Source of the DNA: a virus
DNA: 34,982 bases
IMG/VR virus record: IMGVR_UViG_3300027759_000020
Span: 1-34,982 of that record
Strand: one strand, 5' to 3'
Position numbers and translations under genes: made by a program. Shown piece by piece: positions 8,103 through 22,340 of the stretch. Each line of letters opens with the position of its first letter. Within the stretch, counting starts at the first letter, position 1. The notes below the pieces were generated by a model, which was not told where the DNA came from, made no database searches, and saw nothing but the letters and a program-made list of their open reading frames with translations.

Positions 8103-8357
8103 TCAACACTTCCATCGTTTAAGGGCTGCTTTAGCGCGTTCGCCATCTTTAGCGTTAGCCGCTACAGCGCCCATTCTTGCACAAAATGAATCTTTGCGGC
8201 CTTGGTCGGCCTTAGTCTTTGGATTGGGTGCTGGCGCTTTAAGATTAGAGCCAGTTTCGCGGTTGTACTTCTCACGGCCTTTGGCAGTCAAACCCGCGCC
8301 CTTAGATACCGGCAATTTCTCGCCACGACCGACAGATAATGAAACGCTTTTTTTCAT
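8103..8357 (-). CDS. DUF6321-like small basic protein
   Basis: An 84-aa protein with the conserved core KGAGLTAKGREKYNRETGSN, LKAPAPNPKTKADQGRKDSF and a C-terminal FCARMG ... ALKRWKC. This pattern is known in phages as DUF6321, function unknown. I chose ATG 8357 (MKKSVSLS) because it overlaps the terminase stop as ATGA; the longer reading would need a TTG 12 bases upstream. It is the first of three consecutive small basic genes between terminase and portal, and the two conserved cysteines might bind metal. Confidence 0.75.
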   Translation of the reverse strand: MKKSVSLSVGRGEKLPVSKGAGLTAKGREKYNRETGSNLKAPAPNPKTKADQGRKDSFCARMGAVAANAKDGERAKAALKRWKC

Positions 8358-9880
8358 GAACCCATCCAAGAAGTTGCACTTTCAGCCGAGCCAGCATACA
8401 CCCGCCGCGTAGTTTGTTTATTGTACTCTCTGTGCGCCACAGGAAAAGCAAACGTCACGCAGATAGCGTCTGCTGCGTCTGGTGAGGCAAGGCCGCGCGC
8501 TTTCATGTCTTTTTTAGATTCCAAAAAGATTGTTCCACGTGAATCAGGCTTCATCATAGGCGAAATTAAATCAGTTTTCAAGAACCGATCATTAGGAATA
8601 CTGGCCGTTTTCAGCCATTCCCGCATGTCACCCCACATCTGTGCCCGCATATTACCGTACATAACTGGGTTTTTAGACTTATTGCCAAAGTTCACGCCCT
8701 TGATCTTGTACCGCTGCTCTTTTAAGCGGTCGACAATCCCTGCGCCTAAGCCGCCTTCGTCAATAACCACCAGTGTGGGCTTGAATTCCTCAATTGCTTC
8801 GATCACATACCCCACCACCGTCATGGTGTCGTCGCCCCGATGCCGCATTATCTTGACAATATCGCGCCCTTGCCTGACAGCTATCACGGTTGCGTCCGCA
8901 CCAAACCGTGCGGGGTCTACGCCGATCACAATCGGCGCGCTCAAATCCTGATATTTCGTCCTGGCCATAGCGTCGTCCACCACGTTAGCCCCGATGAACT
9001 GGTCATCCCCCGCGTTGGGAAACTGACCGTACACCTCGACGTGCGATTGTGCTGAGTCTGGCCCGTATTCGTCAATGATGCGCTGATAAACCGCCTTGTC
9101 GGTGCCCTCAACCGTGCGGGCGTCCACCACGCGGGTTTTCCAAAAGTCCCGCTTACTGTGGAAAGCCTCGTAAAAGTACCCCGTATTGCGCCGTGGGTTG
9201 CTAAAAGCCATCCAAAAACGATTCGGCGTGTTTTCCGTAAAGAAGCCACCTGTCACCGCCCAGATTGAGTCGTCAATACCAGACGCCTCATCAAAGATCA
9301 CCATTACACCGTCAAAGTTGTGCACACCCGCGTAAGCGTCGGGGTTCTCCGCTGACCACAGCCGCCCTTCAACGCCCCAGTAACGTGTGCCCTTTTTCAA
9401 ATCCCGCTCGACTAGCTCAGTCAGCCACTTGGCAGGCATCACTCTGGTAGCCGACACCTCAAACCAGTGCGAGTTAATTGCCATCGCCAGCCACTTTGTG
9501 ATCTCGGCCCAGGTGATACTGCGTAGTTGGGACTCTGAGTTAGCCGACACAATGGTCGTCGAGCCGATCCGCGTGGTCATCATCCAGATCACCAACCAAC
9601 TGACCAACGCCGACTTACCAATACCACGGCCAGACGAAATAGCTTCTTGCAATACACCAAAGTCCATCTTGCCTTGGTTGAGCTTGATGTGCTCCGCAAT
9701 ATCCAGCAGCACCTCGCGCTGCCATTTGCGCGGGCCGGAGAAGTTTTCCAGCGGCGTACCCTTGACGCCCCAAGGGAAGGTAAGCATTACAAACGCCAGC
9801 GGATTGTCTTTGATCTGTGGACTCCACAGTCTGGCCATCAGTTCCTGTTCATCTTCAGCGCTGTAGATGGTGCTCTGCAT
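8354..9880 (-). CDS. terL: Terminase large subunit (packaging ATPase-nuclease)
   Basis: A 508-aa motor protein that pumps DNA into the procapsid and cuts concatemers. The ATPase half has a Walker A-type loop at residues 82-91 (SSGRGIGKSA), Walker B and catalytic Glu at 191-198 (GVMVIFDE), and a coupling-type segment around SNPRRNTGYF. The RNase H-like nuclease half shows the three acidic positions: Asp322 (IGVDPARFG), Asp374 (VVIDEGGLG) and the Asp468/Asp471 region (ASPDAADAI). All key residues appear intact. The gene overlaps terS by 26 bp. The headful or cohesive mode cannot be read directly, but P22-type context favours headful packaging. Confidence 0.95.
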   Translation of the reverse strand: MQSTIYSAEDEQELMARLWSPQIKDNPLAFVMLTFPWGVKGTPLENFSGPRKWQREVLLDIAEHIKLNQGKMDFGVLQEAISSGRGIGKSALVSWLVIWMMTTRIGSTTIVSANSESQLRSITWAEITKWLAMAINSHWFEVSATRVMPAKWLTELVERDLKKGTRYWGVEGRLWSAENPDAYAGVHNFDGVMVIFDEASGIDDSIWAVTGGFFTENTPNRFWMAFSNPRRNTGYFYEAFHSKRDFWKTRVVDARTVEGTDKAVYQRIIDEYGPDSAQSHVEVYGQFPNAGDDQFIGANVVDDAMARTKYQDLSAPIVIGVDPARFGADATVIAVRQGRDIVKIMRHRGDDTMTVVGYVIEAIEEFKPTLVVIDEGGLGAGIVDRLKEQRYKIKGVNFGNKSKNPVMYGNMRAQMWGDMREWLKTASIPNDRFLKTDLISPMMKPDSRGTIFLESKKDMKARGLASPDAADAICVTFAFPVAHREYNKQTTRRVYAGSAESATSWMGS

Positions 9881-10319
9881 GTGCTTCTTGCTCTAGGTGA
9901 GGACTCGGTTCATGGGCCAATACGTCAATGACGCGGGACTCTGCTTGGCGCAAAGCGCCCAGGATTGAGATGCGCTGGTCAACATCAATGCTGATGGACT
10001 GCTTGGCCACCCAGCCGTGCGAGTGTTGCAGGATTGCCAGCGCCGCTTTGGCGTCGCCTTCTTTGGCTGCTTTGTGCAAGCACATGGACATTTCCAACTC
10101 GCCGTCAGCTTTTCCCTTAAGCGCCGCCATGTCTGCTATGGGGTCTAGCTCACACAATTGGCGGTACTCGGTTGGCAACATGCCGGAGGCCAGCGCCAAC
10201 GCGTCGCCTTTAAGGCCAAGCTTGGCAGCTTCGTAGATTTTATTTAACCGTGCTTCGGTTGCAACAACCTTGCGCGGCTCAAATGGAAGACTGTGAAACA
10301 TTTGCGAATTGTAGGTCAT
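9855..10319 (-). CDS. terS: Terminase small subunit
   Basis: A 154-aa helical protein directly upstream of terL. The N-terminal region (RLNKIYEAAKLGLKGDALAL, ASGMLPTEYRQLCELDP) looks like the helix-turn-helix DNA-binding part of phage small terminases. The middle (ALKGKADGELEMSMCLHKAA, KEGDAKAALAILQHSHGW) is the usual oligomerisation region. It would recognise the packaging site and load TerL. It is the first late gene, next to the 657-bp control region. No clear Shine-Dalgarno lies before ATG 10319 nor before an in-frame ATG six codons later. Confidence 0.8.
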   Translation of the reverse strand: MTYNSQMFHSLPFEPRKVVATEARLNKIYEAAKLGLKGDALALASGMLPTEYRQLCELDPIADMAALKGKADGELEMSMCLHKAAKEGDAKAALAILQHSHGWVAKQSISIDVDQRISILGALRQAESRVIDVLAHEPSPHLEQEAHAEHHLQR

Positions 10320-10416
10320 GTAGGCAATTTAAAAAATAAAAAAAAATTGTTCGTAAACCCTTCGTCACCGGCTGGCCCTGTCGTCGGCCCTGCCACCCCC
10401 CACCCCCGACCACTAA

Positions 10417-10604
10417 GTTAGTAAGCGCTAACTAACAACCTTAAGTTAGTGAGTGCTAACTAACATAGCTAAGTTAGTGCTTACTAACTTAAGCGAAGTG
10501 AGTACACACTAACTTAACTTCGGGGTGGTAGGTTAGTGGCCACTAACATAGCTAAGTTAGTGACTACTAACATGGCCATTTGACCTAAGTTAGTGGCCAC
10601 TAAC
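10417..10604. repeat. Array of seven 16-bp palindromes, GTTAGTnnnnACTAAC
   Basis: Copies start at 10417, 10445, 10473, 10498, 10532, 10556 and 10589. Copies 3, 5, 6 and 7 have both half-sites perfect. Copies 5 and 7 are full palindromes with a GGCC centre. Copies 1 and 2 have five-base arms (GTTAG/CTAAC), and copy 4 has one mismatch. Spacing is 28, 28, 25, 34, 24 and 33 bases. Such arrays are typical of iterons at origins or of cooperative operators bound by a dimeric protein. The binding protein is not identified. Confidence 0.9.
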
Positions 10605-10805
10605 ATGATGGCCATATAGTTATCAAAACCATAATGTAGGCAATGTAGGCAATATTGTCATATGGTTTTAGTCGCTGGCTAAACGTGCACCCATACCTAA
10701 TTATTAGCTATTAAGTATTACATATATTTTTTGATTGTCTCAAACAAAACAAATGACAATATGACCTACAAAACAGCAAAAACCTAGTATCCATGCGGCC
10801 TACAC

Positions 10806-10857
10806 GTGGGCAATTCTCGGACCGTGCAACTTGCCCACAACTTGCCCAACTTGCCCA
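10806..10857. repeat. Cluster of TTGCCCA repeats
   Basis: Three direct copies of ACTTGCCCA start at 10829, 10840 and 10849, and one inverted copy (GTGGGCAA) lies at 10806-10813. They are 34 to 85 bases before the early promoter. The CCCACA part also matches the arm of the inverted repeat at 10923-10948, so one regulator could bind both. Function inferred. Confidence 0.65.
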
Positions 10858-10890
10858 CACCGAATAGGGTAAACACCTAGAAAATAAGTG

Positions 10891-10922: not shown

Positions 10923-10948
10923 TGTGTGGGCGCGAAATGACCCACACA
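10923..10948. promoter_or_regulatory. Operator-like inverted repeat over the early start site
   Basis: TGTGTGGG (10923-10930), ten bases, then CCCACACA (10941-10948) form a perfect 8-bp inverted repeat covering the predicted transcription start. It could be a repressor operator that shuts the early promoter, or a 5' RNA hairpin just upstream of the first early leader. The sequence alone does not decide between these. Confidence 0.6.
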
Positions 10949-10976: not shown

Positions 10977-11165
10977 ATGACAAAATCAGAATCAAACGAA
11001 ATTAAAAAAACCGTGCAATATTTCGCAGCCGGTTTAGGCTTAGATTATTTGGCGCGCGCATTGTCCGCGATCCATCGCGCAGCGCGCGGCCAAGATACCA
11101 AGCGCGCTATTGAAGCGCTGGCCACCGAGCACAGCATCACACAGCACCCCGAATTTAAAATCTAA
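10977..11165 (+). CDS. First early gene, 62-aa unknown protein
   Basis: A 62-aa helical protein (MTKSESNEIKKTVQYFAAGL, GLDYLARALSAIHRAARGQD, then TKRAIEALATEHSITQ). No family recognised. It is the first gene after the strong early promoter, with a leader carrying ACTAAC and CGAAAGT. Small early proteins in this position often act on host polymerase or other host targets, but nothing in the sequence proves that. The gene is followed by a GC-rich hairpin. Confidence 0.65.
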   Translation: MTKSESNEIKKTVQYFAAGLGLDYLARALSAIHRAARGQDTKRAIEALATEHSITQHPEFKI

Positions 11166-22026: not shown

Positions 22027-22213
22027 ACGTATAAGAACATTTTTTGGCAGGATTAAAAACAAAACGACTGTCGTTGCACAAGGGGCGGCGTGGTATTGCA
22101 CCGATTGCAAGCTGGTGTTCTTAACTAAACAAGCTGGCGACAAGCACAGTTGTGAGTACAGATTTCAAGATTCAATAGTGAAGATGAGAAAAGATGCCGA
22201 GACAAAAAACTGA
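22019..22213 (+). CDS. 64-aa zinc-ribbon-like protein
   Basis: A 64-aa protein starting at ATG 22019 (MLERIRTFFGRIKNKTTVVA) with a Cys-x2-Cys ... His-x-Cys pattern (WYCTDCKLVF, then KHSCEYRF), typical of a single zinc finger. GGAGG stands just before the start. It may bind nucleic acid or protein. An ORF extending upstream to 21953 lacks such a ribosome site. Confidence 0.65.
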   Translation: MLERIRTFFGRIKNKTTVVAQGAAWYCTDCKLVFLTKQAGDKHSCEYRFQDSIVKMRKDAETKN

Positions 22214-22340
22214 GTTAACTAAAAGCGGCAAGGCCATTGGCGTTCGTTTGACGCAAAGCGAATACGAACAATGGGTGAAGCTAGGGGGAGGCAAATGGTT
22301 AAGAAAACTTCTACAGGAGAAAAAAGATGCCCGCGTTTAA
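22194..22340 (+). CDS. 48-aa ribbon-helix-helix-like protein
   Basis: A short ORF, MPRQKTELTKSGKAIGVRLT then QSEYEQWVKLGGGKWLRKLL, ending QEKKDARV. A beta strand (AIGVRLT) followed by two helices fits the Arc/CopG-type RHH DNA-binding fold, which binds palindromes as dimers. It overlaps the neighbours on both sides by 20 and 14 bases. It is the only recognisable candidate for a DNA-binding regulator in the genome. Fold by pattern only. Confidence 0.55.
   Translation: MPRQKTELTKSGKAIGVRLTQSEYEQWVKLGGGKWLRKLLQEKKDARV

Follow-up and report, generated by a model that had tools for sequence, protein, structure and literature searches.

The window analysed here, a 34,982-bp circular virus record taken at its full length, carries seven copies of a palindrome between its late and early genes. 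The locus raises the question of which protein reads these copies and what the phage gains from them. The terminal overlap of the record is 127 bp, which is probably the assembly k-mer, and the phage is a 35-kb circular freshwater podovirus. It encodes an A-family DNA polymerase and a DUF5906 primase-helicase, and P22-like portal and coat genes are present in an annotated relative. The terminase large subunit (TerL, 8354..9880, minus strand) was identified by its match to phrog_2. The gene directly upstream of TerL, the first of the late operon (9855..10319, minus strand), had no PHROG or Pfam match and was named TerS by position. The array separates this leftward terminase operon from the early genes, which run rightward. 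A GC-rich block with a pyrimidine tract (GGCCC..GGCCCTACCCCC, 10360-10412) is situated between the array and TerS, and nearly all relatives keep it, whether or not they have the array. Some relatives carry a tRNA-Met(CAT) gene between the array and TerS (L060:5923-5997, L068:2505-2579, L070:5921-5995, L071:5899-5973, and L067:1944-2018), and the window has no such gene.

The dyads start at 10417, 10445, 10473, 10498, 10532, 10556, and 10589, at steps of 24-34 bp. The initial annotation had placed seven palindromic units, four of them perfect, at 10417-10604, and it was correct in coordinates and copy number. Motif scoring and shuffles defined the array (10417..10604, no strand assigned, as for its units) as seven palindromes resembling the binding site (SBS) of SlmA, the nucleoid-occlusion protein of the TetR family. 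The site model was the 20-bp pattern GTNAGTNAGYRCTNACTNAC, a form of the published consensus AAGTAAGTGAGCGCTCACTTACGT with 16 informative positions. Unit 1 (10417..10436, GTTAGTAAGCGCTAACTAAC) and unit 2 (10445..10464, GTTAGTGAGTGCTAACTAAC) are 20-bp dyads with an 8-nt centre, and both score 16/16. Unit 3 (10469..10488) scores 15/16 and contains a perfect spacer-4 dyad at 10473-10488. Unit 4 (10494..10513, CGAAGTGAGTACACACTAAC) is degenerate and scores 13/16. Units 5 (10532..10547), 6 (10556..10571), and 7 (10589..10604) are perfect spacer-4 dyads that score 13/16 in the 20-bp model. The perfect dyad GTTAGTnnnnACTAAC thus occurs four times, at 10473, 10532, 10556, and 10589. For units 1 and 2, a 20-bp dyad is a better description than the 16-bp unit given previously.

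The seven-unit array is far beyond chance expectation. Eight sites of at least 13/16 were found in the window, and seven of them are inside the array. With dinucleotides shuffled across the whole window, the mean was 0.37 such sites, at most one per 200 bp, and shuffles of the 211-bp array region gave a mean of 0.03 against the seven observed. The exact palindrome is absent from the rest of the 34,982-bp genome.

The half-site GTNAGT and the nested 20-bp palindrome are those of the SlmA-binding site. Published sites include the consensus oligo and the sites SBS17 (TCAACGTTAGTGACCATTTACTTACTTTTG) and SBS12 (CGCGAAGTGAACGCTAACTCACTG) (PMC4423959; PMC7468209), with primers in PMC4117426. On the model applied to the phage units, E. 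coli SBSs that have served in experiments reach 16, 14 (SBS17), and 13 (SBS12). The likeness extends to the centre of the site. In 51 distinct spacer-8 units, picked by their outer half-sites alone, the central 8 bp read GAGYRCTN, as in the consensus, and this check does not use the site definition itself. Solved SlmA structures exist, and SlmA binds DNA as a dimer of dimers (PMC4423959). Going by that arrangement, the half-site offsets of 0, 4, 10, and 14 in the 20-bp unit would suit two TetR-type dimers, 10 bp each and offset by 4 bp. A spacer-4 unit, with two half-sites 10 bp apart, would suit one dimer. Many units are such spacer-4 forms, unlike the E. coli 12-bp core consensus GTGAGTACTCAC, which counts against reading them as SlmA sites. 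Judged from the sequence, the palindromes are nevertheless very probably SlmA-binding sites.

The spacing of the half-sites was examined in 61 nonredundant arrays, in which half-site pairs were counted at 11/12 matches or better. Spacers of 4 nt (312 dyads) and 8 nt (90 dyads) accounted for nearly everything, and each other spacer occurred 0-6 times. The spacers are therefore essentially 4 or 8 nt, which fits one TetR-type dimer or the dimer of dimers of SlmA. A stem of 6-7 bp could be drawn for each unit, so that the leader of the late or early transcript might instead carry the units as RNA hairpins. This possibility can be judged from the half-site, which varies at position 3. Both sides of position 3 were changed in 13 of 363 units, where 35.7 would be expected if the sides varied independently, and two of the 13 were complementary. 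Double changes that are rarer than under independence and almost never complementary argue against RNA or cruciform stems, and a hairpin function is extremely improbable. A structured RNA element was rejected on the same ground, its stems lacking compensatory base changes. The uncompensated changes point to a protein site, and the pattern at position 3 suits a dimeric protein able to bind when one of the two half-sites is weak.

About 150 loci were collected from IMG/VR by TerS and TerL searches, and 108 distinct loci had sufficient upstream sequence for scoring. The array was at the same place in 66 of the 108 loci, absent from 37, and ambiguous in five. It comprised 2 to 9 units, mostly 5-7, usually 22-34 bp apart from centre to centre, and in whole genomes of relatives the palindromes were limited to the array region. 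The array was present even where TerS identity was just 54-68%. Both the unit and its place are thus conserved, as the initial annotation had proposed to check by a search of relatives. Its reading is borne out in part, since the results support an array of several sites, read by a dimeric DNA-binding protein, where early and late genes diverge. The array is also optional. It was missing from relatives in which TerS is 90-92% identical and the rest of the intergenic blocks can be recognised as alike, and the array state on the TerS tree required at least eight changes, of which at least four were forced by strongly supported branches. It has therefore been gained or lost repeatedly.

This distribution bears on two further functions. 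The first is an origin of the lambda type, in which the units would be iterons bound by a phage initiator, as the initial annotation had considered. In lambda-type origins, O binds iterons, which are palindromic sites of about 18-20 bp arrayed near AT-rich DNA. The phage array resembles them as an array of palindromic sites close to AT-rich DNA. It differs in being optional and in having the sequence of a host factor's site. Its absence from 37 of 108 loci, including relatives with near-identical TerS, and the four or more forced gains or losses mean that it is not the origin, and iteron function is highly improbable. Other intergenic repeats look more like an origin. Iteron-like 9-bp repeats (TTGCC[CT]ACA / TGACC[CT]ACA) occur at 10310-10330, 10634-10660, 10746-10772, 10827-10860, and 10938-10948. 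They flank a conserved AT-rich core (about 10670-10745), with opposite orientation on its two sides. They were found in every near relative, with a sequence flavour that differs by genome (GTGGACAAT, TTGGGTCAA, and GTAAGTCAT). These repeats and the AT-rich core are the best candidate for the replication origin, and the SF3 primase-helicase is a possible partner.

The second function is packaging, in which the array would mark or protect the start site of the terminase (pac/cos) or serve the DNA ends. The array adjoins TerS or TerL in several lineages, and in two of them (L264 and L317) it follows closely on the 3′-end of TerS. However, it is missing beside TerS that is 90-92% identical, and phages with unrelated terminases use the same motif. 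A packaging role is very improbable.

The proteins of the phage itself did not follow the array. Among 21 genomes, 13 with the array and eight without, no phage DNA-binding gene tracked it. The partners proposed earlier, namely the 48-aa RHH-like protein, the 62-aa protein, and the primase, were not borne out, as their presence does not follow the array, and neither does that of other small genes. The primase-helicase was rejected as the cognate initiator because genomes of both kinds have it, and TerS was rejected because nearly identical copies occur in array-less relatives. The 48-aa RHH-like protein (22194-22340) evolves fast (44-79% identity), occurs whether or not a relative has the array, and is missing from two relatives that have it. 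The 62-aa protein is encoded by the first early gene (10977-11165), and its relatives lie beside the same region in phages of both kinds. Relatives of the 62-aa protein also adjoin arrays in phages with no more than about 30% identity in TerL.

On the host side, contigs with TerL relatives were binned in MAGs of Rhodoferax and other Burkholderiales. As phage contigs are prone to mis-binning, this host evidence is weak. In the probable host family assigned from these contigs, SlmA was above the curated cut-off in 35 of 40 genomes, and the MAG that supplied the family (G028) gave no SlmA match above the cut-off. The recognition helix VSEAALYRHF was unchanged from E. coli in two aligned SlmA proteins of the family. 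SlmA of the host of the window phage is predicted to bind the array. The chromosomes of the family are the weakest link in the case for SlmA. The SBS core and 20-bp patterns were mostly below control there, with enrichment in one genome only (G063, 15 vs 6). The exact palindrome occurred in two of 150 genomes, once in a phage contig. Possible reasons for the low enrichment are high GC, degeneration of the sites on the chromosome, or avoidance. The low enrichment also favours a different protein with SlmA-like specificity, such as another host TetR-family regulator or an undetected phage repressor, for which the array would be a cooperative operator. The preference for T at position 3 in the phage form, against A or G in the E. 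coli consensus, points the same way. Against such a protein, the match to the SBS extends to the centre and to the 4-bp nested geometry, and no phage gene tracks the array. We regard this alternative as improbable.

Isolate phages related by terminase were also scored. No site of at least 13/16 was found near TerL in those of Pelagibacter, Planktothrix, Caulobacter, and Roseobacter, nor in DSL-LC04, the host of which is labelled Gammaproteobacteria. The four named host groups are not known to carry SlmA, and if they lack it, site-free phages are expected. Because of DSL-LC04, however, the absence of sites speaks neither for nor against SlmA.

Arrays were also found outside the family of the window phage. 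A scan of IMG/VR for the site model gave at least 120 matching stretches, compared with 12 for the reversed palindromic control. Among the matches listed, 30 of 87 newly fetched loci had at least three sites within 500 bp, and 17 of these 30 showed no terminase or primase match to the family of the window phage. Two of the 12 control loci likewise carry three control-pattern sites, and a weak cluster therefore does not settle the matter by itself. Among the clear arrays are those of L369 with three perfect 24-bp tandems, L403 with six sites at 28-bp steps, and G191 with ten sites. Twelve such array records have 2-10 sites each and zero control matches. The array adjoins terminase genes in several lineages with different terminase families (L348, L365, L369, L278, L401, L264, L317, and the L379/L247 split-terminase group). 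Exceptions are L296, with an array near a primase-helicase gene, and L275 and L298, in which the tested neighbours were not recognised. The split terminase (L247, L379, L385, L392, and L423) consists of an ATPase-like protein of about 330 aa and a nuclease-like protein of 452-481 aa, and phages of this group carry, beside the SlmA-site arrays, other short repeats such as GCACCAATnTGGTGC. BLAST of the array sequence against cultured phages and plasmids gave no convincing match. A search of the open-access literature found no paper on SBS arrays in phages. SlmA and its sites are already known, and going by the literature searched, the natural phage arrays are the new part.

The occurrence of SBS arrays in unrelated phages suggests that phages probably recruit SlmA with DNA sites alone. 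SBS-bound SlmA antagonises FtsZ in E. coli. A multicopy plasmid that carries tandem SBSs blocks division with lethal effect, and this block requires SlmA and works through complexes dispersed in the cell (PMC3573117). We prefer a division block as the function of the array because of this plasmid effect. Replication of the phage would provide many genome copies with seven sites each, and SlmA would be drawn to phage DNA across the cell. SlmA activated by these sites would then prevent Z-ring assembly, and the infected cell would not divide before lysis. An E. coli cell contains 300-400 SlmA molecules (PMC4423959), and about a dozen phage genomes could bind all of them if each unit takes four molecules. 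A replicating phage with seven sites may thus be a natural counterpart of the tandem-SBS plasmid. We consider it somewhat probable that the array recruits host SlmA and that the block of division is what selection has favoured.

The recurrent place beside terminase genes is left unexplained by a division block alone and counts against it. SlmA could bind the array while the selected trait is control of transcription, with activation or repression of the flanking late (terminase) or early operon. The array could even be a copy-number timer, since each genome could take up as many as 28 SlmA, and roughly a dozen genomes would then titrate a few hundred molecules. We treat late-operon control by SlmA as the main rival because SlmA can activate transcription, as it does at V. 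cholerae Pchb when bound 167 bp upstream of the start (PMC5519180), and because the terminase-side place recurs, in several unrelated lineages and here at the early/late divergence. In E. coli, however, SBSs upstream of a promoter left lacZ expression unchanged, and repression required a site between -35 and -10 (PMC3573117). No clear sigma-70 promoter was found within or right beside the array, and array-less relatives retain the same operons. Transcription control as the selected function is rather unlikely.

The division block is thus the preferred reading. More broadly, SBS arrays may be a widespread and convergent phage device, by which the DNA-activated FtsZ antagonist of SlmA-bearing hosts is turned on them by DNA sites alone, with the block (and perhaps, in view of the terminase-side location, late-gene or packaging timing) tied to genome copy number; we hold the chances of this wider proposal to be evenly balanced. 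If it is true, division would be blocked by a cis-acting DNA array coupled in dosage to replication, a form of host takeover that is invisible to gene-centred annotation. SlmA would gain a role in infection, the recurrent intergenic array beside terminase genes of unrelated phages would be explained, and phages dependent on SlmA would become predictable.

The phage array can be compared with known systems. Chromosomal SBSs of E. coli and V. cholerae share its half-site GTNAGT and nested 20-bp palindrome, and phage units score equal to SBS17 and SBS12. The chromosomal sites are single, dispersed, and outside the Ter region, numbering 24-52 in E. coli, whereas the phage array has 5-9 units clustered in one intergenic region, many of the spacer-4 form. 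The laboratory plasmids pHC534 and p2SBSK likewise place several SBSs on a multicopy replicon, from which activated SlmA is expected to spread through the cell. These plasmids were built for genetics, whereas the array occurs naturally in the phage, with a larger number of sites, and is amplified during infection. Lambda Kil and other phage-encoded division inhibitors antagonise FtsZ in infection, which is the outcome proposed for the array. Those inhibitors are proteins, whereas the array consists of DNA sites only, and its effector would be a protein of the host.
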